Shown here: positions 764 to 34,499 of the stretch, piece by piece
Layout: each line of letters begins with the position of its first letter
Position numbering within the stretch: position 1 is the first letter of the stretch
Source: Bacteroidales bacterium
GTDB taxonomy: Bacteria > Bacteroidota > Bacteroidia > Bacteroidales > UBA3824
Assembly: GCA_016286055.1 (NCBI GenBank)
Contig: JAEERW010000003.1
Location: 124,001-188,000 of the forward strand
DNA length: 64,000 nt
Direction of reading: 5' to 3'
The notes under the pieces: generated by a model
Database searches by the model: none
Told to the model about the DNA's origin: nothing
Seen by the model: only the letters and a program-made list of their open reading frames with translations
Translations under genes and position numbers: made by a program

Positions 764-2329
764 TTATTCTGTGGTAGTTTTTGATGTACTTTCGTCGATG
801 TATTTGTGGAAGAATTCGTAAGAATTGCCACCGATTTGAATAGCGGAGAGTTTGGGCAATGGAAGGTTTTTAAGTTTGGCGGTGGTGGTGTAACTATCGC
901 CTTCACATTCGTCGAAATCGCCTTTGTAAGTTTTTTCTTCAAAATTGAGCACTTCGGTGGTAGAGCCGTCTAATCCTTCATCGCAAAACAGATTTACGAT
1001 AACAAAATCGCCGTCTTGGAATTTTGCCGTGTAGTCGTAGTTTTCCCAGCCGTCGCCTTCACGACGTGTGGATATTATCATTTTGCCATTGTTGATTTTT
1101 ACCGAGGTGGTAAAACTTACGTAATCGTTGGTTTCGTGAGGATATACTTTATATTTTTTAAAAAGATTGTATTTGCCGTCGCCTGAGCCAAAATATACAG
1201 AGAAACCGTTGTTAAATGCGGCAGAATCTTGGATGCCATCGCCGTTGAGGTCGCCTGTGGCTGTGGGTGTGGGTTCCCACGAACCATTTTCTTCTGCGGG
1301 TTTGCTGAGACTTTCCTTATAAATTTTTATAGACTCAATAGTGTTATTGTCAGGTTTGCGACAAAATTCAACAACAGAGCCATCGGTTTTGATACACGAA
1401 TGGCCGTCTTCATATACAAAATCGGGAAGGTTTTCGGTTATCTCAGAATCAATATCGCTGCCTACCCCTAAATAACAGTAACCGCCACCGCACCAATATC
1501 TATAATCATAACTATTGCCTACCACAATTATCGTGTCGATTTTGCCATCGGCAGAGAGCGAGATTTTAAACTCCTTTTTGGCATTTCGGTTGAAATACAT
1601 AGTGCGCCCCATAGTGTTGATGTCGAAGCCGGCAAGTTGCGAAGGAGGAACGTCGCCTACACGAAGTTTGCCCAAGCCGTTGGTGGTAATAAGTCCTCCA
1701 CTCCAATCGGTTGTTTGGAATTCTCCTTGTTCAAAATTTTCGCCGTTGAACCTATAAAACAAACGCAAAAACGAATCACCTTGGCCTACCGACATCATAA
1801 TATCTTTGCCGTATAAACTACATCGATAGCCGTTTTGGGCAAAATCCGCCTTGGCAGCATCCAAATTTTTGTCGTCGGGATTGTAAAACCACACCGCCTC
1901 GTATTTGTTGAAATCGTCGAAAGTGGGTTTTGGCAGCAAGGTATTATCTTCTGAAATTTTTCCGTCGGCATAGTTGAAAGCCTTGAACGCCTTGGTTTCG
2001 CATTCACCTCCATCTCCTACTTCAGAACATTCTTCAACACAGTACACGGCCAAATATCCGCCTTTTTTTAGGGGATAACAGTTTACACTGGCATACTGAC
2101 CTACTTCTTCGTCTATTTGAAACCTTGCTGTGTATGTGAGTTTGTCCTCTTTGTAATCGGGTAAACCTACCGTAGAATCAGGATTGATTTGTTTGAACAC
2201 TTGATAAGCGATATACTCGGCAAGAGTGTCGGTTTGTGCATTGATAGCCTCCGAACCGCTATTGCTGTTGCCTCCGCACGCGCACAATGTAAGCGCAGCA
2301 ATGGCAGGGATGATAAGAATTTTTTTCAT
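764..2329 (-). CDS. Paralogous lipoprotein with GDLNGDGIQD motif
   Basis: A 521-residue protein starting MKKILIIPAIAALTLCACGG, a signal peptide with a Cys at the lipobox. It contains the family block GFDINTMGRTMYFNRNAK (about residues 237-255) followed by SLSADGKIDTI, then the calcium-loop-like GDLNGDGIQD near residue 365 and the segment SVYFGSGDGKYNLFKKYKV. The same blocks recur in the genes at 10038-11627 and, more weakly, 16270-17823, so these are duplicates of one ancestor. It sits 21 bp after the gene at 2351-2983 and 22 bp before the partial lipoprotein, suggesting one leftward transcript. FG-GAP/VCBS-type motifs often bind calcium; the biological role here is not known. Confidence 0.85.
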   Translation of the reverse strand: MKKILIIPAIAALTLCACGGNSNSGSEAINAQTDTLAEYIAYQVFKQINPDSTVGLPDYKEDKLTYTARFQIDEEVGQYASVNCYPLKKGGYLAVYCVEECSEVGDGGECETKAFKAFNYADGKISEDNTLLPKPTFDDFNKYEAVWFYNPDDKNLDAAKADFAQNGYRCSLYGKDIMMSVGQGDSFLRLFYRFNGENFEQGEFQTTDWSGGLITTNGLGKLRVGDVPPSQLAGFDINTMGRTMYFNRNAKKEFKISLSADGKIDTIIVVGNSYDYRYWCGGGYCYLGVGSDIDSEITENLPDFVYEDGHSCIKTDGSVVEFCRKPDNNTIESIKIYKESLSKPAEENGSWEPTPTATGDLNGDGIQDSAAFNNGFSVYFGSGDGKYNLFKKYKVYPHETNDYVSFTTSVKINNGKMIISTRREGDGWENYDYTAKFQDGDFVIVNLFCDEGLDGSTTEVLNFEEKTYKGDFDECEGDSYTTTAKLKNLPLPKLSAIQIGGNSYEFFHKYIDESTSKTTTE

Positions 2330-22221: not shown

Positions 22222-23811
22222 CTATTTAACAATCTTGTTGTCGGGCATTTGCGCTCCGTAGCCTTTTACCTTGCCAAAGAGGTCTTTGGCTTTTTCCCAA
22301 GGATACTTGTTGCAGTACATCGAGGGACGCACAATTTCGGTGCCTTGCTGATTGAGTCCGAATGCACGGTTTACTTGGTTGGCAGCCGAATTGGCATTGT
22401 AACTTTGGCTCGACATTATTTTCAGGCTCAAAAATCCTTCGAGGTAACTTTGGTCGATGGCGTTGGTAAATGCCTTCTCGCTTTCGGGCAACTCTCTGTT
22501 GTTCTCGTACTTAGGACCAATCTGATCAACCTCCTCGATACGGTCGGCGGGCACTGAGATCGAAGCCACTCCCGACGATGCTATTTCGAGGTCGCGCTTG
22601 TTGGCAAAAAAGTAGTTTTCGTAGAGGTTGCTCTGTTTGAGTTTTTCCATATTTGCATTGGTTTCGTAGTAAACACGCTCCACGGCGCAGTTGCTGTTGC
22701 AGCCAAAAATATTGTGGTGGCAGTCGATGGTGCGGATGCCGTTCATAAAGCGGAATCCCTGACCCATATCGTCAAACACCTTGGTGCGTGTCCAGGTAAA
22801 GAGTACAGTGTTGTGGTGAAAATCGAACGAAACCTTGTCGATGTCGGCGTCTCTTACATTGCCTTTAATTTGGCACGAAGCATAGCGGCACGAAATAAAA
22901 ATATTGTTGCACACCTCAATGTGTCCCTTGCCCATAAGTCCGGCGATACCATAATCGCGACAGTTTACAAAAATGCAGTTTGAAATGCGTACCTGACCTT
23001 CTACATCTAAATGCAAACCATATTCGTCGCCGCTGAGATAGCCTTCGGTGGGAACAGAAGGTTGAGCATCGGGTTCAACAAAACGACCTGTAAGCACGCC
23101 TTCGTTGGGAGTTCCCGAAACGTCTTTTTCTTTCATATTTTTAGTGCAATAGCGGTTGTTTTCACCAAGGTCGAATACAAGTCCGTCAACCACTACGCTG
23201 CCCTCAGGACCCGAATATCCGTATGGACGGCGGGCGTTGATATTAAACAGCGGAGCAATAAATTTTTGGCTTGTGGGTTGCAGTTTGGTAACGTGTTTCA
23301 TAACGTCGCGCTGGGCAAAATCGGTGGAGTATCCTCCATAAATGCTTATAAATTTGCCCATTTCGTGAGTAGCATTGCCAAAACGTCCAATTTCGATATA
23401 TCCCCTGTCCATATTGCCGAGATAGTTGCCCTCTGCCACAAGAATAATGTCGTTGTCTTGCGCAAGGTCGATGGCTTTTTGAAGGTCTTTGAGAGCGGTG
23501 GAGGGCGATTTGCCGTCGTTGCGGGCGCTGCCTGTGGAAACGCTCACATAATAGGTGTTGCCTTTGGCGGCTCTAATTTGAGGAGCGTTGTTAGAGGACT
23601 GAGATACAGTAGGTTGACTTGTAGTACCTTGCTGGGTTGTAGTGCCTTGCTGAGTTTGCGAACTGCCGTTGTTGTTGCCGTTAACAGCATTGTTGGCGGC
23701 TTCTTTTGCCTTGTTTAATAGGTTTTTACCTATCTGAGCGTCGGCGGTTGACACTGCAAAAGCAGCAAACAAAACCAACGACGCGATTTTTGCGAATCTG
23801 TTTAAGTTCAT
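22222..23811 (-). CDS. Secreted right-handed beta-helix protein (DUF1565/pectate-lyase-like fold)
   Basis: A 529-residue protein with signal MNLNRFAKIASLVLFAAFAVSTADA, then an Asn/Gln/Thr linker (residues 30-75). At about 85 begins the typical start of Bacteroidetes beta-helix proteins (TYYVSVSTGSARNDGKSPST, ALKDLQKAIDLAQ, ILVAEGNYLG). Short strands with regular CIFVNC, NIFISC and HHNIFG repeats follow to about residue 400. Such proteins include pectate and other polysaccharide lyases, but I see no catalytic signature, so a glycan-binding or lyase role is only inferred from the neighbourhood. The promoter region is the first copy of a 111-bp repeat. Confidence 0.75.
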   Translation of the reverse strand: MNLNRFAKIASLVLFAAFAVSTADAQIGKNLLNKAKEAANNAVNGNNNGSSQTQQGTTTQQGTTSQPTVSQSSNNAPQIRAAKGNTYYVSVSTGSARNDGKSPSTALKDLQKAIDLAQDNDIILVAEGNYLGNMDRGYIEIGRFGNATHEMGKFISIYGGYSTDFAQRDVMKHVTKLQPTSQKFIAPLFNINARRPYGYSGPEGSVVVDGLVFDLGENNRYCTKNMKEKDVSGTPNEGVLTGRFVEPDAQPSVPTEGYLSGDEYGLHLDVEGQVRISNCIFVNCRDYGIAGLMGKGHIEVCNNIFISCRYASCQIKGNVRDADIDKVSFDFHHNTVLFTWTRTKVFDDMGQGFRFMNGIRTIDCHHNIFGCNSNCAVERVYYETNANMEKLKQSNLYENYFFANKRDLEIASSGVASISVPADRIEEVDQIGPKYENNRELPESEKAFTNAIDQSYLEGFLSLKIMSSQSYNANSAANQVNRAFGLNQQGTEIVRPSMYCNKYPWEKAKDLFGKVKGYGAQMPDNKIVK

Positions 23812-23812
23812 T

Positions 23813-23923
23813 TTTTTTGCTATTTAGTTAATAATTATCAAATTTTACGATTGCAAAAATACCCCTGAAACAGCAAAAAAAATAGGATTTTCCGCTCAAA
23901 AAATAGGATTTTGGGCGAAAAAT
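23813..23923. repeat. 111-bp direct repeat, copy A (leader of the beta-helix gene)
   Basis: Identical to 25595-25705 except for one base (a/t in aattttacg versus aatttttcg). It ends 10 bp from the GH11 stop codon and includes a -7-like box (TATTTTTG, minus, 23854-23861) and an internal AAAAATAGGATTTT duplication. Confidence 0.95.
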
Positions 23924-23933
23924 CCATAAAACT

Positions 23934-25490
23934 CTAATTCACCAACACCTTGTAAGATAAGTTGCCGATAATTACAATGTAGATACCTGTTTTTATAATG
24001 TTTACCTCTTCTTTTGTTGATTTTGTGGCGGCAGACTTGATTATTTTACCGTTTATGTCGATGATTTTGTATTGGGTGTTGGGTGCGGATTCGATGTAGA
24101 TGGAAGAGCTGAACGACCAGACTTTGATGCCTGATTGATTGGCTGGAATGTCGGACACAGGTGTGGGAATATAGTTTTTGTCGATTGTGAAAGTTCCTTT
24201 TTCGTAACTAACTGAATAGTTGCCCTGTTTTGAGCTGCCCGACGGAGTGATAGTGTATTTGCCTTCGGATTCGCCCTTGGTGCGCGAGATGGTGTATTTG
24301 ATCAACGACTCGGATTCTCCGTCTACAAGTCCCGAAATTGTGGCAGTAAGTTTAGGATCGCTGTCGCCGGGGTTCTTGGCTTTGTCGTCGGCTTTTACGG
24401 TAATCTCTTTGGCAGTTATCTTAAATGTCTCGTATGATGTGCCTTTGTAGTCGCCAATGCCCACAATAGATAATGTGTAATTGCCAACATTGATGCAATC
24501 GTCGTCGGTCTCCACTTTGTAATCTTGATTCAAAACAAGAGTCTTGTCGCCGTCTTTAACTACTATGTTGTCAGGACTTTGCTTTTTGCCGTTGTAGGTT
24601 TTGCTGTCGCCTGTGATTGTTATGCTGCAGGATGAAATCTGTTTTTTGTAGTTGTCGTCTAATTTCACATAGGTGTAGTCTACTGTTCCTGAACTTAGGT
24701 TAGAACCAGTGCCGCCGCTATTGTGATAAAGGTTAACTTGATCTATATCACCCAGTGACACAGGTATATCAATATTGGAAGTGCCGTTGCACGCTATATT
24801 CATTGTCTGCCCGTAGAAAAGTTCCAACCACTTGCTGATATGAGCCGAAATATTGATATGTCCGCATTGGCGCGAAGTTTCTCGGAGACTGAATACCTGC
24901 ATTAAAGAGGTGTTTCCTACTTGACTAGGTTGGTTGGTTCTCCAATGGGCATAAATTGTGTATAATGCGCCATCTAATTCATACTCGCCTACTTTAGTGC
25001 CAAGAGATGCGGCGTAAGGCTTATCGCCATACCAATCGTCTATAATATAGCATTCTGTCACTGGGTTCAGAGTCCAAAGATGCACACCAATGTAGCCATA
25101 TAAGGCTTTGTTGTTGCCCTTGGTGTAGCTGTAATCTAATGCGAAATTCTTGGTTTTAGGATCTACGAGTTCAGAATAGTCGTAACCAAACTCAAATTGA
25201 TATTCTATAGCCTGCATCCATTCTGCCACAATGGTGTTGTTTTCGTAAACTGTCAGATGGCTTTTGTATGCATTGTCCGACCATTGGGTATACACTAAAG
25301 GGGTTCCTGTTATTTTTTCAGTTTTATTGCCGTTAAGATTTAGAGGCGTACCCGTATGCCCCATATCGGTGGAACAAGGATCCTGGGCGTTTACCGACTC
25401 GACATTAAGTGTACACGTTAATGACAACGCTAACGAAAGGATGAGCGCTTTTTGCCCTCTCGTTGAAATCTGGTTTGTATGTTTTTTCAT
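23934..25490 (-). CDS. GH11-like xylanase with MBG domain and T9SS sorting domain
   Basis: A 518-residue secreted protein. Residues about 65-240 fit the GH11 jelly roll: YTQWSDN, a nucleophile-type Glu146 in NPVTECYIIDDWYG, the thumb HWRTNQPSQVGNTS and the SLRETSRQCGHI strand. The position where GH11 has its acid/base Glu (ATEGYQS) reads IACNGTS, so Asn235 replaces it. An MBG-type repeat follows (SKTYNGKKQSPD, then AKEITVKADDKAKNPGDSDP), and the last 70 residues (KVWSFSSSIYIES... YKVLVN) are a type IX secretion sorting domain. GH11 enzymes cut beta-1,4-xylan; activity here is doubtful without the acid/base residue. It is flanked by 111-bp direct repeats. Confidence 0.75.
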   Translation of the reverse strand: MKKHTNQISTRGQKALILSLALSLTCTLNVESVNAQDPCSTDMGHTGTPLNLNGNKTEKITGTPLVYTQWSDNAYKSHLTVYENNTIVAEWMQAIEYQFEFGYDYSELVDPKTKNFALDYSYTKGNNKALYGYIGVHLWTLNPVTECYIIDDWYGDKPYAASLGTKVGEYELDGALYTIYAHWRTNQPSQVGNTSLMQVFSLRETSRQCGHINISAHISKWLELFYGQTMNIACNGTSNIDIPVSLGDIDQVNLYHNSGGTGSNLSSGTVDYTYVKLDDNYKKQISSCSITITGDSKTYNGKKQSPDNIVVKDGDKTLVLNQDYKVETDDDCINVGNYTLSIVGIGDYKGTSYETFKITAKEITVKADDKAKNPGDSDPKLTATISGLVDGESESLIKYTISRTKGESEGKYTITPSGSSKQGNYSVSYEKGTFTIDKNYIPTPVSDIPANQSGIKVWSFSSSIYIESAPNTQYKIIDINGKIIKSAATKSTKEEVNIIKTGIYIVIIGNLSYKVLVN

Positions 25491-25594
25491 AATGAAATAG
25501 TGTTAGATAATTAATATTTAGCTTTTTATATAAACGCAAGATTACTCTTCAGTATTATTCCTTTTTTGAGATAGTGGTGAGAATATGTTTTTCC

Positions 25595-25705
25595 TTTTTT
25601 GCTATTTAGTTAATAATTATCAAATTTTTCGATTGCAAAAATACCCCTGAAACAGCAAAAAAAATAGGATTTTCCGCTCAAAAAATAGGATTTTGGGCGA
25701 AAAAT
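25595..25705. repeat. 111-bp direct repeat, copy B (upstream of the GH11 gene)
   Basis: The second copy of 23813-23923. It starts 105 bp upstream of the GH11 ATG and ends 8 bp from the stop of the DHHW gene at 25714. The two copies thus occupy equivalent positions just after a stop codon and bracket the GH11 gene. Confidence 0.95.
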
Positions 25706-25713
25706 ACAAGTCG

Positions 25714-27189
25714 TTACTCCGTCTGTGTGGTATCTCGCACAATTCCTGAGCCTTCTGGTTGGGTGAGAAAACGCTTGTATTTTTGGGCGGCGGTGAGGGT
25801 GCAGCAGAAGGTGAGGTTGTTGGCAAAAAGGATGTCGGTGATTTGGTGGTCTTCCACGTATTTTTTCATATTTTTGGGAAAATAGCGGAAATCTACCACG
25901 TGAACTTCTTCAAACGAATAAAACAAGCACGAGGGGATTGTGTTGCCGTAACTGTCTTTGAGTATGAGTATTCGGCGACCGTTTTTGGTAGAAGTTTCCA
26001 CACGGGTCAACTGCGAATCGCTACCAAGAAATGTGGAGTATGCGCCCGAACTGCCATCGCGAAATTTGGCAAAATATGAACGTTCTTTTTCGGGATATAC
26101 TTTGGTGATATTATATTTATTATCAATAATATAAGATATTACGTGGGTGGTAAACTGCGTTTGCGATGGGTAATAATAGACAAAATCTTCTGGCGAATTT
26201 TTTACCGAAATATCCTTGGCATAGCCGTACATCGAACCCACAAAATTGTGAATTACACGGGGTTCGTAGCCGTCTTCAAGACTCTTAAACGGCAATCCGG
26301 CTTGATTGGCAAAGCATTTGGCAGCGTAATATCCTCCGAGGGCGCTCCAATGGTGGTCGGTGCGGAGGTAAATAGGTTCGTTGACGTGCGCCAAAAGTGT
26401 GTCGTAGATATGCACGGCGTTTACATTTTCGTTGAGTTTCTTAAACACGGCTTCGATACAGGGTTTTTGCCGCCAATTTACCGAACGCGCCTCTTCTGGT
26501 CCGTAAAACTCTGACGCTGTGGGTATTGGCATTACCCAAATATTCACATCAGGAAAAGTCTCTTTGTATGAGTTCACCACCGCACAATACACTTTGGTGT
26601 AATACGATGTGCACCCAAAAGCCAAAAGAGCACGCACATTAGGTTCTTCGCCCACAAGTATTACGCCTGAGTTTGGAATGCGGAAACCATCGTGATTATC
26701 AGGCTCTTTGGGTGCAGGCTTGTTTTCGGAGGACTTGTTTTCGGCGGTTTTGTTTTCTACGGGCTTGCTTGGCGCAATGGTGTCTTTTATTTGCGGTGCA
26801 ATGGCGGGAGTATCTACTGCAACTACCTCGTTGTCAAGCAATTCATCGATAGATAGAGTGGTATCTACCACAGGACGGTCGTTGGCATCGCCGGTGATAA
26901 AGGTAACGGCATTTTCGCCGCTGCCGGTTTTTACGCCTTTCATACTGTTGAACTTTTCGCTCAAAGACATAAACGATTCGCGGAAAGGCTCACTGTCGCT
27001 ATACCATTTTGAAATGCTGTCGGTAAATTCACCGCTTGCAAATTTTTCGACAGAAAACTCGGGAAAAGTGGCAAGGTCGCGGCGTTCGCGTTCCGAAAAC
27101 GACGACCGTGGAAAAAAATTCAGCACCACGGTCATTATTCCAAATGCCGCCGCTGTACCTATTATGTAGATTTTAGAATAGTTATTCAT
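25714..27189 (-). CDS. DHHW family protein (AlgJ-like, O-acetylation accessory), long
   Basis: A 491-residue protein anchored by an N-terminal membrane segment (IYIIGTAAAFGIMTVVLNFF). I take the ATG at 27189 (MNNYSK). The motif LRTDHHWSALGGYYAA (about residue 290) defines the DHHW family, and LILKDSYGNTIPS later resembles the SGNH-type Asp/Ser region of AlgJ/AlgX proteins. A Pro/Lys-rich linker lies at about residues 120-165. These proteins work with an MBOAT acyltransferase to acetylate exported polysaccharides. It is the last gene of the set 30730 to 25714, together with a second DHHW paralogue, MBOAT and SGNH genes. Confidence 0.85.
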   Translation of the reverse strand: MNNYSKIYIIGTAAAFGIMTVVLNFFPRSSFSERERRDLATFPEFSVEKFASGEFTDSISKWYSDSEPFRESFMSLSEKFNSMKGVKTGSGENAVTFITGDANDRPVVDTTLSIDELLDNEVVAVDTPAIAPQIKDTIAPSKPVENKTAENKSSENKPAPKEPDNHDGFRIPNSGVILVGEEPNVRALLAFGCTSYYTKVYCAVVNSYKETFPDVNIWVMPIPTASEFYGPEEARSVNWRQKPCIEAVFKKLNENVNAVHIYDTLLAHVNEPIYLRTDHHWSALGGYYAAKCFANQAGLPFKSLEDGYEPRVIHNFVGSMYGYAKDISVKNSPEDFVYYYPSQTQFTTHVISYIIDNKYNITKVYPEKERSYFAKFRDGSSGAYSTFLGSDSQLTRVETSTKNGRRILILKDSYGNTIPSCLFYSFEEVHVVDFRYFPKNMKKYVEDHQITDILFANNLTFCCTLTAAQKYKRFLTQPEGSGIVRDTTQTE

Positions 27190-27284
27190 AATATAATTTT
27201 GTTTTTTTAAAAACGAATTAAACAAATTAAAACGAAGAAAATTATTTATAAAATAAAAAATTTAATCAAGATTAAATTTTTTTG

Positions 27285-27402
27285 ACGAATTAAACTAATA
27301 CACTAAAAATGTATTAGTTACATTCGTAAAAGAAAGTTTCTTTAAGGAACTTTCTTTATAATAATATCAATAAAAAATATTCGTATCATTAGTTTAATTC
27401 GT
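27285..27402. promoter_or_regulatory. Structured intergenic element between the two DHHW genes
   Basis: The 15-nt arms acgaattaaactaat (27285-27299) and attagtttaattcgt (27388-27402) are perfectly complementary and enclose further hairpins: aactaatac/gtattagtt (27293-27319, competing with the outer arm) and agaaagtt/aactttct (27331-27355). The region 27226-27416 has no gene. It could be an RNA switch, a processing site or a termination structure. Confidence 0.5.
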
Positions 27403-27416
27403 TGTTAGTTAATAAT

Positions 27417-28496
27417 TTATCGTGTTGGGTTCTGAGTTAAATAACGTTTTAGTGCGTCTTGAATTTTGGGCTGACCCACAAATTGAAGGTTGTTGCACAA
27501 AACTATATCTGTAATACCTTGTTTTTCAACATATTCTGTTAGGTTTCGATTAAAATATCTGCAATCAATTACGTGCAAATCTTCAAACGAATAAAACAAA
27601 TATCCCGGAATTGCATTTCCAAAACTATCTTTTACAAAAAGCACCTTGCGACCGTTGCCCACATTGGTATGCACGTGAACAAGACGGGCGTCGCCACCAA
27701 TAAAAGTGCAATACGCCGCCGCGCTGCCGTCGGGATACTCTTTAAAATAGTTTTGGTCTTTGGGTATAAATTCGCCAGTAACTTGGTGAACACCAGCATA
27801 TTTAAACTGTACTATGCTTGTAGAATATTTGGCAGCGATGGGCAACCAAAAATCAAAATCTTCGGGATTGTTTTTAACGTTGATATTTTTGGTGTAATGA
27901 TACATTGTGCCGCAGTAACGGTGAATTACACGGTGCTGATAACGTGTTGAATCTTCGATACTTACAAATGGAACACCTGCCAAAGCAGCAAACCTTTTGG
28001 CGGCGTAATAAGCCCCGAGTGGAAGCCAGTGATGGTCGGTGCGGGCATAGATATTTTCATTGGCGTGCTGACCCAAAATTGTGTGAATATCAACACAATG
28101 CACATCCTTGTCGGCATATCCAAACATATAATTTATGGTAGAATATTGCTCTGATGTAAAAGCATTGTTTTTGGGACTGTAAAACGCTGCCGCAGTGGGA
28201 ATTGGCATCAACCAAATGTTCACTTTGTTGCCAAATGTCTTTTTGTAAAGATTCGCCACTTTGGAATATTCCGACGATGTGTATTGAATACTTTTCCACG
28301 GCGAAAACGCACGAATATCTTTGCCGCTACCTGTTACCGCCACACGATTCCACATTTTGAGACTCACGTTTGGACATACAACATTCTCATACTCAGGCAC
28401 AACGCGGTTTTCTACCGTATCGTTGTACGCCGTTTGCGCATTGGCTGCAAAACTTATTGATAATGAAGTTGTTACAATTAAAAATACCTTGTTCAT
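27417..28496 (-). CDS. DHHW family protein (AlgJ-like), short periplasmic form
   Basis: A 359-residue protein with a cleavable Sec signal (MNKVFLIVTTSLSISFAANA). It has the motif ARTDHHWLPLGAYYAA, the preceding IWLMPIPTAAAFYSP, and VLFVKDSFGNAIPGYLFYSFEDLHV, which align with the C-terminal two thirds of the 25714-27189 protein. So it is a duplicate without the membrane anchor and linker. Gene order with MBOAT (15 bp away) supports a role in O-acetylation of a surface or exported glycan. Confidence 0.85.
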   Translation of the reverse strand: MNKVFLIVTTSLSISFAANAQTAYNDTVENRVVPEYENVVCPNVSLKMWNRVAVTGSGKDIRAFSPWKSIQYTSSEYSKVANLYKKTFGNKVNIWLMPIPTAAAFYSPKNNAFTSEQYSTINYMFGYADKDVHCVDIHTILGQHANENIYARTDHHWLPLGAYYAAKRFAALAGVPFVSIEDSTRYQHRVIHRYCGTMYHYTKNINVKNNPEDFDFWLPIAAKYSTSIVQFKYAGVHQVTGEFIPKDQNYFKEYPDGSAAAYCTFIGGDARLVHVHTNVGNGRKVLFVKDSFGNAIPGYLFYSFEDLHVIDCRYFNRNLTEYVEKQGITDIVLCNNLQFVGQPKIQDALKRYLTQNPTR

Positions 28497-28510
28497 TTTT
28501 CCTATATAGT

Positions 28511-29917
28511 TTAAAATCTGAAATACAAAAATGCATTATTGGTGGCGCCCACAAGTAGCGCGGTGCTAAACAAAATCACTAATACTGAAAACGTTATCCT
28601 GTATGCGCAGATATATTCAGGTTTGGTGATTTTTTCTTCCAAAATCTTGCGCACAGGCATACAAAACGCAATGGCGGCTATCCACAACCACAGATTGCCC
28701 GAAACTGCCTGAACGTCTGCAAAATTATAAAATTCTCCGCAAGTAAAAATCCTACTGAAAAATAATTTCATACTTTCAAAATCGGTGAAGTAAAATATAC
28801 CCCAGCCAATGTAAACCATCAAAAGGCTGTAAACGTTTCCGACAACGGGTATATCCTTGATTTTCTTTAAGATAAATAGTTTTTCGATTACCAAAATCAC
28901 ACCAAAAAACAAACCCCAGATAATAAAATTCCAACTTGCACCGTGCCACATACCTGTTAAAAACCACACGCACAGCACGTTGCGCCATTGATTTTTACGG
29001 TTTCCACCCATCGGGATATACACATAATCTCTGAAAAACGACCCGAGCGAAATGTGCCATCTGCGCCAAAAATCAGTTATGCTGTTGCAACAATAGGGAT
29101 GGTTGAAATTCTCGTTGAAATGGAATCCCAAGCAGCGTCCAATGCCGATAGCCATATCTGAATAGCCTGAAAAGTCGAAATAAATCTGCAACGAAAACGC
29201 CAACAGTCCGAGCATCAAGCCGAGCGTTGTGGAGGTCTCTAAACCATTGGTAAGATACTGAGTAGCAATGCTTCCTATTTGGTTGGCGATAATCACCTTT
29301 TTGGCAAGACCAATCATAAATCTGTAAACGCCGTCGGCAATATCGTCGAACGAAACTTTGCGGTTGTTAATCTCCTCAGCCACAGTGTTGTAGCGTACAA
29401 TAGGTCCTGCAATAAGTTGCGGAAACATACTAATATATAGCAGCAAATCCACAAACCGTGTTTGCGCCTTTGCCTCTTTGCGATAAACGTCTACTAAGTA
29501 ACTGATACTCTGAAAAATATAAAACGAAACACCAATCGGCAAACTAATCTCCGGCACGGGGATAGGAATACCTACGGCATTGAGCGTTTCGGCAAAAAAT
29601 CCGGCATATTTAAAAATACAGAGTATCAATACGTTGCACGCCACGCCGACAATCAATGCCTGACGTTTTTGAATAGATTTTTCTATAAATTTGCCTGCAA
29701 AATAATTGATAATTACGCATATAAGCATTAAAAACACATAAATTGGTTCGCCCCAAGCGTAAAATATCAGGCTAAACGCCACAAGCACGGCATTTTTAAA
29801 CGCCATTGAGCCCGCACCGTCTAACGATTTCTTTTTGTCGATGTAATACGCTGCAAGATAGCATATTACAAACAACGGTAAAAAAACAAACAAAAAGAAT
29901 AAATCTGAAAATACCAT
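28511..29917 (-). CDS. MBOAT family O-acyltransferase (AlgI-like)
   Basis: A 468-residue polytopic membrane protein starting MVFSDLFFLFVFLPLF, typical of AlgI/PatA/DltB-like MBOAT proteins. It has the family signatures FDFSGYSDMAIGIGRCLG, NFNHPY, ITDFWRRWHISLGSFFRDYVYIPMGGNR (here split) and the catalytic-His motif TGMWHGASWNF near residue 325. It would move acetyl groups across the inner membrane to the DHHW/SGNH partners encoded beside it. It lies 7 bp after the SGNH gene and 15 bp before the short DHHW gene, so the four genes look co-transcribed. Confidence 0.92.
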   Translation of the reverse strand: MVFSDLFFLFVFLPLFVICYLAAYYIDKKKSLDGAGSMAFKNAVLVAFSLIFYAWGEPIYVFLMLICVIINYFAGKFIEKSIQKRQALIVGVACNVLILCIFKYAGFFAETLNAVGIPIPVPEISLPIGVSFYIFQSISYLVDVYRKEAKAQTRFVDLLLYISMFPQLIAGPIVRYNTVAEEINNRKVSFDDIADGVYRFMIGLAKKVIIANQIGSIATQYLTNGLETSTTLGLMLGLLAFSLQIYFDFSGYSDMAIGIGRCLGFHFNENFNHPYCCNSITDFWRRWHISLGSFFRDYVYIPMGGNRKNQWRNVLCVWFLTGMWHGASWNFIIWGLFFGVILVIEKLFILKKIKDIPVVGNVYSLLMVYIGWGIFYFTDFESMKLFFSRIFTCGEFYNFADVQAVSGNLWLWIAAIAFCMPVRKILEEKITKPEYICAYRITFSVLVILFSTALLVGATNNAFLYFRF

Positions 29918-29923
29918 CTTTTG

Positions 29924-30730
29924 TTATTCTTGATTTTGGGTTAATAATTTGCTGATTTCTAAGGCAATAAGTTTGCCATTTTTTTGTGCGCCAATTATTG
30001 ATGTGTGAGTGCCGTCGTAGGTGTTTACCTTTTTTACACGCTCGTCGGCAGATTTTACACAGCATATTTTATCTTGACGGATTGTACTGATATTCATCAG
30101 TTTACCACAATTATCTATAACATCACCAATTTGCTCAATTACCGATAACGGCACGGCGGTTGTTTGCATTGGAGTTAACAAAATTATCCTTGCCTCGGGG
30201 AAATATTTTTGCAACAATGCACAATTAAACACTACACTTTCGGCTAAGGTAACTATTTTGTTTATAGGCGTTTGCGCTATGCTATCGTATTTTGAAAAAG
30301 CCTCGTTGGCAGAGCGGACAAAAAGTTGAGGATAATACTTGGCTTTGAACCATCCGTCATTAGTGCCGCAAGCAATGATTATAAGATTTGGAGAGGCAAT
30401 TAGTGTGCTGTCAACTTTTTCTTTAAGGCGTTCTACTTGATTGTAAATCACATTGTTTGGCGTAGGTTTGGCTGCATATTCGGCAGTATTGCGGACGGTT
30501 TGGGGCGTATGAGTCCACGATGCACCGCTGCGGGCAAGACTTACGCACGATTTTGGCTTAAATTCTGCCTTAAAATATGTGTTCCAACCTTTTGGCTTTG
30601 TGCAGTCGTCGCCGCCGAGCCACGTGTTTGAGTCGCCAAGGATAGCCACATCAATAGTGTCGTGCTGCGTTTGAGCACTTGCCAAAGTGGTAATTATCAA
30701 CAATATGAGCGATATAATAGTTTTTAGCAT
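29924..30730 (-). CDS. Secreted SGNH/GDSL hydrolase
   Basis: A 268-residue protein. The ATG at 30730 gives the signal MLKTIISLILLIITTLASAQ. Block I is VAILGDSNTWLGG, the block III-like motif is IIACGTNDGW, and the final Asp-His pair is YDGTHTS. This is the SGNH hydrolase layout (nucleophile Ser in GDS, catalytic Asp/His near the C-terminus). It heads the O-acetylation set with MBOAT and two DHHW proteins, so it may add or remove acetyl groups on a glycan in the periplasm, though a role as a carbohydrate esterase acting on xylan cannot be excluded. Confidence 0.85.
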   Translation of the reverse strand: MLKTIISLILLIITTLASAQTQHDTIDVAILGDSNTWLGGDDCTKPKGWNTYFKAEFKPKSCVSLARSGASWTHTPQTVRNTAEYAAKPTPNNVIYNQVERLKEKVDSTLIASPNLIIIACGTNDGWFKAKYYPQLFVRSANEAFSKYDSIAQTPINKIVTLAESVVFNCALLQKYFPEARIILLTPMQTTAVPLSVIEQIGDVIDNCGKLMNISTIRQDKICCVKSADERVKKVNTYDGTHTSIIGAQKNGKLIALEISKLLTQNQE

Positions 30731-30809
30731 TGTATTATAAGTTTTACAATGCAAAATTATCAAAAACAATGCTAAAACTATCCGTCGGGGCAAAATCTTA
30801 AAAAAAACT

Positions 30810-31874: not shown

Positions 31875-32906
31875 TTACAAAACCGGGAAAAGGTACTTGT
31901 AAATATTTGACAATTCGGCTTGAAGGTCGGGCGAATCGGCGGTTACGGCTATCACGGCGTTTTTGGCGGGATGCACTATTATATATTGTCCGCGTGCTCC
32001 GTCGGCGCGGTATGCGTTTTCGGGACAACGCCACATTTGGTATCCGTAGCCCAAAAGCCAAGCGCAGTTTTCTTCGGTAAGTCCCTTAGCCTCAACTTCA
32101 TCGGGGCGTGTGCCGGCTGGTACTGACGGAACCTGATATTTTGATGCTTCCTCAACCCATTGACTGCTAACGAGTTGTTTGCCGTTCCAAACACCTTTTT
32201 GCAGAAACAGTTGACCAAATTTTGCCATATCTTCGGTTTTGAGATACAATCCCCAACCGCCGCAGTTGATACCCTGAGGACTCTCTTCCCATTTGGGTTT
32301 TTCGATTCCAAGCGGTTCAAAAAGACGCGGTGTAAGGTAGTCTACTATTTTTTCGCCTGTAACTTTCTGAACAATAGCCGAAAGCATATACGTGCCGATA
32401 GAGTTGTAGCAATACCAAGTGCCGGGAGTTTTGGTAACGGGATGAGCAAGAAACGCCTTTGTCCAAGTTTCGGTGGTATCGTTGCGCACCTGCGGTTCGG
32501 TTTCGTGTCCGCAATTCATTGTGAGCAAGTCTTTTATGGTAATTGCTTTGAGATTATCCGAAACCTCTTCGGGCAGTTCGTCGGGGAAGAAATCCACCAA
32601 TTTGTCGGTAACTTTGAGTTTGCCTTCGTCCACAGCCATTCCCACAGCAGTGGCGCAAAACGATTTGCTCACCGAGTGCATTACGTGCGGAAGATTTTCC
32701 TCACCGCCATTAGCCCAACGCTTATACACCGTCTCTCCGTTTTTCAAAATCATAACGCTCTGTAATGTAACGTCTTTGATAGTGTCGGTGGCGGCAAAAA
32801 GTTCGTCGGCAGCGGTGGTAATTTTGTCGTTGCTGCCTTTGTCGCCTGCGCAACCTGACAACAAAGCACCGGCGGCAAACATTGTGATAATAAAAGTCTT
32901 ATTCAT
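31875..32906 (-). CDS. Serine hydrolase lipoprotein, class C beta-lactamase fold
   Basis: A 343-residue lipoprotein (MNKTFIITMFAAGALLSGCAG; lipobox LSGC). The SxxK motif is HSVSKSF (Ser78, Lys81) and the YxN motif is WYCYNSIG near residue 175. The length and motifs fit the beta-lactamase-related serine hydrolases, which include esterases, D-aminopeptidases and PBP-like enzymes. The position among xylan-degrading genes favours an esterase, but a cell-wall role is equally possible. It has its own promoter (32938-32968) and terminator (31821-31851), so it is a single-gene unit. Confidence 0.85.
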   Translation of the reverse strand: MNKTFIITMFAAGALLSGCAGDKGSNDKITTAADELFAATDTIKDVTLQSVMILKNGETVYKRWANGGEENLPHVMHSVSKSFCATAVGMAVDEGKLKVTDKLVDFFPDELPEEVSDNLKAITIKDLLTMNCGHETEPQVRNDTTETWTKAFLAHPVTKTPGTWYCYNSIGTYMLSAIVQKVTGEKIVDYLTPRLFEPLGIEKPKWEESPQGINCGGWGLYLKTEDMAKFGQLFLQKGVWNGKQLVSSQWVEEASKYQVPSVPAGTRPDEVEAKGLTEENCAWLLGYGYQMWRCPENAYRADGARGQYIIVHPAKNAVIAVTADSPDLQAELSNIYKYLFPVL

Positions 32907-32937
32907 TGCATTATAGTTTAAGTGATTGAAATTATTG

Positions 32938-32968
32938 CAAAGGTATAAAACATTATCAACTCATCAAA
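32938..32968 (-). promoter_or_regulatory. Promoter of the serine hydrolase gene
   Basis: On the minus strand, TTTG (32968-32965) and TACCTTTG (32945-32938) are separated by 19 bp, a near-consensus Bacteroidetes promoter. Its -33 box overlaps the T tract of the terminator upstream. Confidence 0.7.
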
Positions 32969-32972
32969 AAAA

Positions 32973-32997
32973 AGGCTATCGAAAAAATCGATAGCCT
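32973..32997 (-). terminator. Terminator after the 33027-34499 lipoprotein
   Basis: aggctatcg/cgatagcct (9 bp, 7-nt loop) is followed on the minus strand by eight T. Confidence 0.8.
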
Positions 32998-33026
32998 GAT
33001 TTATTGTGTGCTAACGCGTTTGCTAT

Positions 33027-34499
33027 TTACACTCCGCTAACTCGGTCGAGAGAGAATCTGATTGTCAAACCAGCATTTACGTTCAACAATTTGTTGTAGA
33101 TGATTTCGTAAGCGGGATATATTTCGGTTTCACCAAGTCCGGGATCGGTTGCACCCCAATTGCTTGCCTTGTATTCTATAAAAGTATCCGACAGTTTGGG
33201 TTTTTCGTTTTTAAATAGAGCCTTCTGTTCGTCGGGAAGCGAATCCCAGGCATCGATAATCTTTTGAAGGGCGGCGTCAGAATCTTCGTCAACAGTAGCG
33301 AGGTTTAATTTTCGCACTTCGGCGATATATTCTCGCGCCTGTTCAGGAGTGGCATCTTTAATGTAAATGTTGATGCCCACAATATTGTCGTATCCAACCC
33401 ACGCGCGGCGGCTAACTTCAAACGAAGTAATGTCGTGCTGATATTTTACGAGCCATTTGTTTAGCACTTCGGGATATTCGTCGCTAAGCCATTCGTTGGC
33501 GGTTTTTTTGTGACTTTTGAGGCAATCGTCCCAAATGCATTTACCCAAAGGACTATATGCTTCTGTTAAAGTGGCATAATTCTCTTTCATTGTTCCACCG
33601 GGAATAAATGCATCCATTTTCCACTTGTTCCAACCGAAAGCAACGCCCCAGTCAAACAGTTGCAGACAGATAAAGTCGTCGGTGAGCCACCACTCTTGGA
33701 GTATTTCGGGAGCATCTTCGTAGGGCTGACCAAAGAGCATTATCTGTTCTCCGGGAGCCAACGTAATAGAATAATGAGTGCAAGGCACACCGTAGAGTTC
33801 GGTTTTCTCCGATTTGAGCACAAACTTCTTGTCGGTGTAGGTGTTAGTTATCATCGGCGCGTATGTATCTTGCAGTAGAGAATACATAGAAGCGAGGCAT
33901 TTTTCGTGGTTGTTGGTAATGTCGCTCACCAAAGCATTGGCGGCAATGAGTTCATCGCGCGAAAGATATTCAAATTGTGCGTATGTGGGTGCAGGCTTGT
34001 AGTTAAGTGCCTTACCAAACCGATCGGGATAAATCCAAAACATAGAATTTTTGCCATCATCACCGAAACTTTCCACATAAAGACTGCTGCCAATGAACGA
34101 CGCATCCGACTCCAAATCATCCATATTAAATATCATAAGACTGCCGTCGGAACCTTTTGAGAGTACATATTGCTCGGCGTCTTGGGTGTCGTAGTTTTTG
34201 GTGAAAACGTAGTTGCCTGTGGGAATCAAATTTTTGATACGGTCGTAATCATTGGCAACAGAATACTCCGCAGGACTACTTTTGCCTGCCAAAGGAAATT
34301 TGCTGTAAAAATCCACAAGGTCGGGATTCTTGCCATCGTCAGTTTCTTTTTCGTTGTTGTTCTGATTATTCTCCTCGTTGTTTCCTTGGATTTGGTTCTG
34401 TTCTTCGGGAATAGGGTCATCTTCTTTGTCGGACGAGCAACCGTTGAAGGCTAATGCCGCCGACAAGCACATTGCCATCACTAAATACTTATGTTTCAT
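33027..34499 (-). CDS. Large lipoprotein of unknown function
   Basis: A 490-residue protein with signal MKHKYLVMAMCLSAALAFNG and a Cys right after (NGCSS), so a lipoprotein. Residues 25-60 are an Asn/Glu/Asp linker. The mature domain is rich in Trp, Tyr and Asp (for example LQLFDWGVAFGWNKW and ISLAPGEQIMLFGQPYEDAPE) and shows no family I recognise. It is a single-gene unit ended by the hairpin at 32973-32997. The acidic linker and location suggest a surface-exposed lipoprotein. Confidence 0.75.
   Translation of the reverse strand: MKHKYLVMAMCLSAALAFNGCSSDKEDDPIPEEQNQIQGNNEENNQNNNEKETDDGKNPDLVDFYSKFPLAGKSSPAEYSVANDYDRIKNLIPTGNYVFTKNYDTQDAEQYVLSKGSDGSLMIFNMDDLESDASFIGSSLYVESFGDDGKNSMFWIYPDRFGKALNYKPAPTYAQFEYLSRDELIAANALVSDITNNHEKCLASMYSLLQDTYAPMITNTYTDKKFVLKSEKTELYGVPCTHYSITLAPGEQIMLFGQPYEDAPEILQEWWLTDDFICLQLFDWGVAFGWNKWKMDAFIPGGTMKENYATLTEAYSPLGKCIWDDCLKSHKKTANEWLSDEYPEVLNKWLVKYQHDITSFEVSRRAWVGYDNIVGINIYIKDATPEQAREYIAEVRKLNLATVDEDSDAALQKIIDAWDSLPDEQKALFKNEKPKLSDTFIEYKASNWGATDPGLGETEIYPAYEIIYNKLLNVNAGLTIRFSLDRVSGV

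Follow-up and report, generated by a model that had tools for sequence, protein, structure and literature searches.

The locus lies within a window of 64,000 nucleotides (the whole stretch of DNA that was analysed) from a Bacteroidales bacterium, on contig JAEERW010000003.1. It comprises three genes and two copies of a 111-bp block, termed R1 and R2. Every gene here is on the minus strand, on which the order is DHHW1, R2, GH11, R1, beta-helix:

22222–23811, minus strand: beta-helix gene, 529 aa, no Pfam family, the native owner of the promoter
23813–23923, minus strand: R1, which serves the beta-helix gene as promoter and 5' leader; three relatives, G004, G017 and G015, have it in the same position with the same sequence
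23934–25490, minus strand: gene for a GH11-fold protein of 518 aa, with a signal region, a GH11 domain, MBG domains and a weak type IX secretion sorting tail
25595–25705, minus strand: R2, the same block placed between the DHHW gene and the leader of GH11; it matches the one copy of G004 at every base
25714–27192, minus strand: DHHW1 gene (DHHW protein, AlgX-like), the left neighbour

The name beta-helix was given in a preliminary description of the sequence; Pfam and PDB sequences provide no confirmation of it. Two DHHW proteins, an MBOAT acyltransferase and a GDSL/SGNH hydrolase follow in a row over 25714–30748, as in an alginate-acetylation-like surface modification cluster.

Alignment of R1 with R2 bore out the earlier account of a near-perfect repeat with one mismatch, which is an A at 23847 against a T at 25629; stretching the comparison to 114 bp gave two differences. 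Exact repeats in the window reach 76 bp, whereas the longest in 20 simulated windows (first-order Markov) were of 15–18 bp, which excludes a chance origin. A whole-genome search returned exactly two copies, and a looser search yielded, besides R1 and R2, only short partial matches; the repeat is therefore not a common unit elsewhere in this genome. Both blocks had been said to start 8–10 bp after a stop codon: on the minus strand R2 begins 8 bp past the DHHW stop (25714–25716) and R1 begins 10 bp past the GH11 stop (23934–23936). R1 ends 1 bp ahead of the beta-helix ATG. Because it occupies the gap from the GH11 stop to this ATG, R1 provides this gene with its promoter and with its leader, the latter as had been proposed; R2 is upstream of GH11, with the correction that a 104-bp leader (25491–25594) separates it from the GH11 ATG.

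The gene between the repeats had been called a GH11-like xylanase, and at the level of fold the assignment holds. The domain matches Pfam PF00457 (5.5e-22), and a structure model (mean pLDDT 78) gave best PDB matches that were all GH11, with Z up to 27.7; this comparison used a longer model, the first being too weak (pLDDT 57). The closest solved structure is CDBFV from the rumen fungus Neocallimastix patriciarum (3wp4–3wp6), which the domain resembles over its whole fold (Z 27–28, about 30% identity) and in the nucleophile Glu. This residue, Glu146, is invariant across 13 aligned sequences. In contrast to CDBFV and other GH11 xylanases, the window protein has no acid/base Glu, carries extra residues before the last strands and is fused to MBG domains and the weak sorting tail. 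Sequence alignment revealed no acid/base Glu in an EGY or EAY/EAW motif: opposite the Glu of the remaining aligned GH11 sequences, the window protein (Ser258 or Asn257) and that of G015 have Ser or Asn. The term xylanase is therefore doubtful. Judged from these residues, the protein may be inactive, or may bind xylan without cutting it, and the prospect of an inactive or altered GH11 cautions against counting the gene as a xylanase. The G+C content of the gene bears no mark of foreign origin.

We then compared the locus with its counterparts in relatives, all of them metagenome assemblies. Among 59 genomes searched, the beta-helix homologues closest to that of the window are in G017, G004 and G015. 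In G004 (L055:4474–4584) and G017 (L054:15438–15547), DHHW1 and the beta-helix gene are joined by a single R without GH11. This is the single-copy junction that the preliminary description predicted, and the lack of GH11 at this place in close relatives agrees with its proposal that the gene was gained there. In G015, a Bacteroidales MAG from yak rumen (JAGCYI010000113.1), GH11 occupies the corresponding place and R is present on the beta-helix side only; here the DHHW1 stop is followed by the GH11 ATG 57 bp later. As G015 has GH11 without a second copy of the repeat, insertion of GH11 and formation of the repeat are separable. The arrangement is thus not common to all relatives: GH11 was found in two of 18 genomes of the genus, that of the window and G015. 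The remaining genus genomes, several of them incomplete, gave no GH11-domain match, the query matches falling in the MBG and tail region, and an order-wide search of the GH11 family, in which the genus was sampled in part, gave no GH11 for the other genus members listed. In the outgroups G010, G011, G002 and G007, DHHW1 adjoins other genes, and R is absent ahead of the beta-helix homologue in G010, G011 and G006; outgroups therefore do not set the direction of change.

The earlier account spoke of target duplication. It is extremely unlikely that a mobile element brought GH11 and left a long target-site duplication, even though a near-perfect direct repeat does bracket the gene at a formerly empty place. 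The repeat belongs natively to the neighbouring gene as its promoter block, and its 111 bp are far beyond normal target-duplication lengths. Besides GH11, the insert contains only ORFs of < 80 aa, with no transposase or recombinase among them, and there are no terminal inverted repeats at its ends. It has no match to phages and no close match to plasmids (weak GH11 matches only). Finally, G015 has GH11 in this very place and shows no duplication.

The window locus has recipient-type flanks outside and donor-type sequence inside. Near the junctions but outside the repeats, the window is 98–99% like G004 and resembles G015 clearly less. On the beta-helix side of R1 the likeness is 98–99% to G004 and G017, as against about 90% to G015, and R2 equals the G004 copy exactly and runs on into a G004-type DHHW gene. 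Between the repeats, the GH11 gene and the 69 bp upstream of it are G015-like. Three segments stand out inside:

24871–25432, minus strand: tract near-identical to G015, with three differences in 562 bp (99.5%)
25535–25559, minus strand: 25-bp remnant of the 3' end and stop of a G015-type DHHW gene (23 of 25 positions match)
25560–25594, minus strand: 35-bp filler between the remnant and R2, with CAAAAAAGG at or near both its ends

The edge of the near-identical tract is sharp at 25433, beyond which identity to G015 is about 81%, and we read the tract, from its identity, as a recent exchange between lineages. The remnant covers the last codons, the stop and the following bases of G015 DHHW1; its counterpart in G015 is a functional DHHW end, with GH11 57 bp behind. 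The window therefore has two DHHW1 3' ends flanking R2, its own before R2 and the remnant before the GH11 leader, as expected if a G015-type inside was joined to an empty-type chromosome. When microhomology was looked for at this non-homologous join, CAAAAAAGG was seen at or near both filler ends; the filler had no match elsewhere in the genus, and the GH11 leader had no good match in the genus besides G015.

Two further observations concern G015. Over 32819–34160 the window is 99.5–100% identical to it, versus about 93% in adjacent stretches, which is another recent lineage exchange. Its DHHW1 (L053 11571–13019) is a divergent allele, the protein being only about 80% identical to that of the window (25714–27192), versus about 95% for the neighbours.

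We consider it fairly probable that the repeat is a recombination scar, left when a G015-like fragment entered an empty-type chromosome, duplicated R and placed GH11 behind the promoter copy in R2. What we see directly are the empty sites, the G015 allele that is filled but lacks R2, the types of the flanks, the DHHW remnant of 25 bp and the GH11 tract that G015 shares almost exactly. From these we infer the direction of change and the recombination route. The ancestor of the strain would have had the empty arrangement, DHHW–R–beta-helix, that G004 and G017 still keep, and a G015-like relative would have donated a fragment with the end of its DHHW gene, GH11 and R. Through homology within R this fragment would have recombined with the chromosome, while its other end would have joined without homology just before the beta-helix start codon. 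The fragment may have been end-joined into a circle and integrated by a single crossover, or it may have entered by homology-facilitated illegitimate recombination; the same structure would result, with R duplicated and GH11 behind a copy of the beta-helix promoter. Homologous recombination in R together with a join without clear homology would account for the repeat, for how long it is and for both flanks. That the beta-helix side is of the recipient type and unaltered speaks slightly for the single crossover, although a short homologous tract in homology-facilitated illegitimate recombination would look the same. Certain features count against a scar: the remnant is only 25 bp long and a deletion could instead have made it the DHHW end of G015, no source was found for the 35-bp filler, and the four genomes are mosaic at the locus, so that no clean tree orders the alleles.

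The main rival explanation makes R–GH11–R ancestral. G004 and G017 would then have lost GH11 by recombination between the repeats, which gives exactly the single-copy junctions observed, and one deletion of about 0.15–0.2 kb, fusing the DHHW end to the GH11 leader, would account for the absent R2 in G015. We regard this as possible though unlikely. It needs losses in G004 and G017 as well as in G015, and the one-base difference between R1 and R2 fits a young duplication. The remnant, short as it is, also argues against it. Moreover, the DHHW end of G015 (ACC..ACGGAAGAGTAA) resembles the intact DHHW end of the empty alleles (ACC..ACGGAGTAA), a coincidence if the former derives from the GH11 leader.

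An assembly artefact, in which either the repeat or the link from DHHW to R2 joins two co-occurring strains, is very improbable. Like those of its relatives, the genome is probably a metagenome assembly, and alleles of both types are in circulation within the genus. Nevertheless, the window is inside a 403-kb contig of a 36-contig, 99% complete genome, and the junction of R2 with the leader has no misleading homology; the DHHW–R2 link alone is exposed, via the 111-bp repeat.

The empty, filled and double-promoter alleles all persist in close relatives and, if the repeat is a recombination scar, the steps of the gene gain can be read, whereas gene gain by recombination is usually visible merely as its end product. 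Recombination between the two repeats could possibly delete GH11 and recreate the state of G004.

The duplicated block is of particular interest for what it contains:

23854–23861, minus strand: -7-like box TATTTTTG in R1
25636–25643, minus strand: -7-like box TATTTTTG in R2
23883–23910, minus strand: candidate operator in R1, two AATCCTA half-sites 21 bp apart, the second 28 bp upstream of the -7 box
25665–25692, minus strand: candidate operator in R2, laid out as in R1

The box, which the preliminary description had also noticed, is of the Bacteroidetes type and occurs in each repeat copy on the minus strand; R showed no canonical -33 box at the usual spacing. The exact operator pattern had 16 matches in the 18 genomes, versus four for a reversed control, and a search of viral contigs for the operator core gave none. 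The AATCCTA motif is upstream of genes for large surface-type proteins in G000, G004, G005, G012 and G017, and the protein-gene promoters listed have the 21-bp spacing, with the second site 28–29 bp upstream of TAnnTTTG. In G000, G015, G005 and G009 the motif is associated with an adjoining AraC-type hybrid two-component (HTCS) gene, which in G000 is on contig C31 (1867–4953).

In G015, inspection against the consensus gave no evident promoter of GH11's own in the 57 bp behind DHHW1. In the window, GH11 has a predicted 5' leader of about 139 bases downstream of the beta-helix promoter copy. Because the copied block holds the -7 box and both half-sites, GH11 has probably captured the beta-helix promoter and answers to the same switch, to judge from the sequence. 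The presence of the motif beside HTCS genes, together with the 21-bp spacing of published HTCS motifs, leads us to infer that an HTCS reading the AATCCTA repeats would control both genes and drive GH11 from R2. The co-regulation suggested earlier is thus plausible, and the candidate operator strengthens it.

The AATCCTA repeat also occurs in other settings. At L151 (G000 C31, around 1691–1718, minus strand), L144, L142 and L113 it comes directly after an AraC-type hybrid two-component gene and is followed by a conserved non-coding stretch, which in G000 and G015 ends in a terminator-like stem. This stretch is possibly a small RNA under the same operator; Rfam gave nothing above the gathering score at three of the operator loci with putative small RNAs. 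Elsewhere in G000, large surface-type proteins whose sorting tails are related form a tandem array on contig C22 (263371–282670; L169, L170); one of them (C22:278681) has a variant AATCCTA operator.

What was copied is exactly a promoter with its candidate operator, and the locus offers a concrete, testable case in rumen Bacteroidales of a gained gene entering a regulon at insertion. A broader and unlikely extension is that the promoter block may serve as a reusable anchor: incoming genes would recombine at this shared promoter sequence bound by a regulator, duplicate it and join the regulon in one step, so building sets of surface proteins under one HTCS.

The candidate operator, a two-site direct repeat with 21-bp spacing, resembles those of Bacteroides HTCS regulators, in which directly repeated sites are on average 21 bp apart (PMC3878776). 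Theirs are read by AraC-type hybrid two-component regulators, whereas the candidate motif AATCCTATTTTTTGA belongs to an uncultured rumen-type genus and is known here from sequence.

The locus itself reflects an ordinary mechanism and a known kind of event, of which it is an unusually clear and well-preserved snapshot. Sequenced E. coli clones in which recircularised linear DNA had undergone a single crossover carried duplications of 109–950 bp (PMC3240628). Our 111 bp are within this range and, as in such Campbell-type integration, the anchor is duplicated and flanks the new DNA; in contrast, ours is a natural rather than an experimental locus, deduced by comparing genomes, and involves no plasmid. 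Homology-facilitated illegitimate recombination is known from S. pneumoniae, A. baylyi and P. stutzeri and has been proposed for Vibrio T6SS immunity gene arrays (PMC5361080). The window locus shares with it one homologous and one non-homologous end, and the keeping of older neighbouring material beside the newcomer; the usual laboratory product, however, has a deletion about as large as the insert, whereas here none is detectable and the anchor is duplicated.
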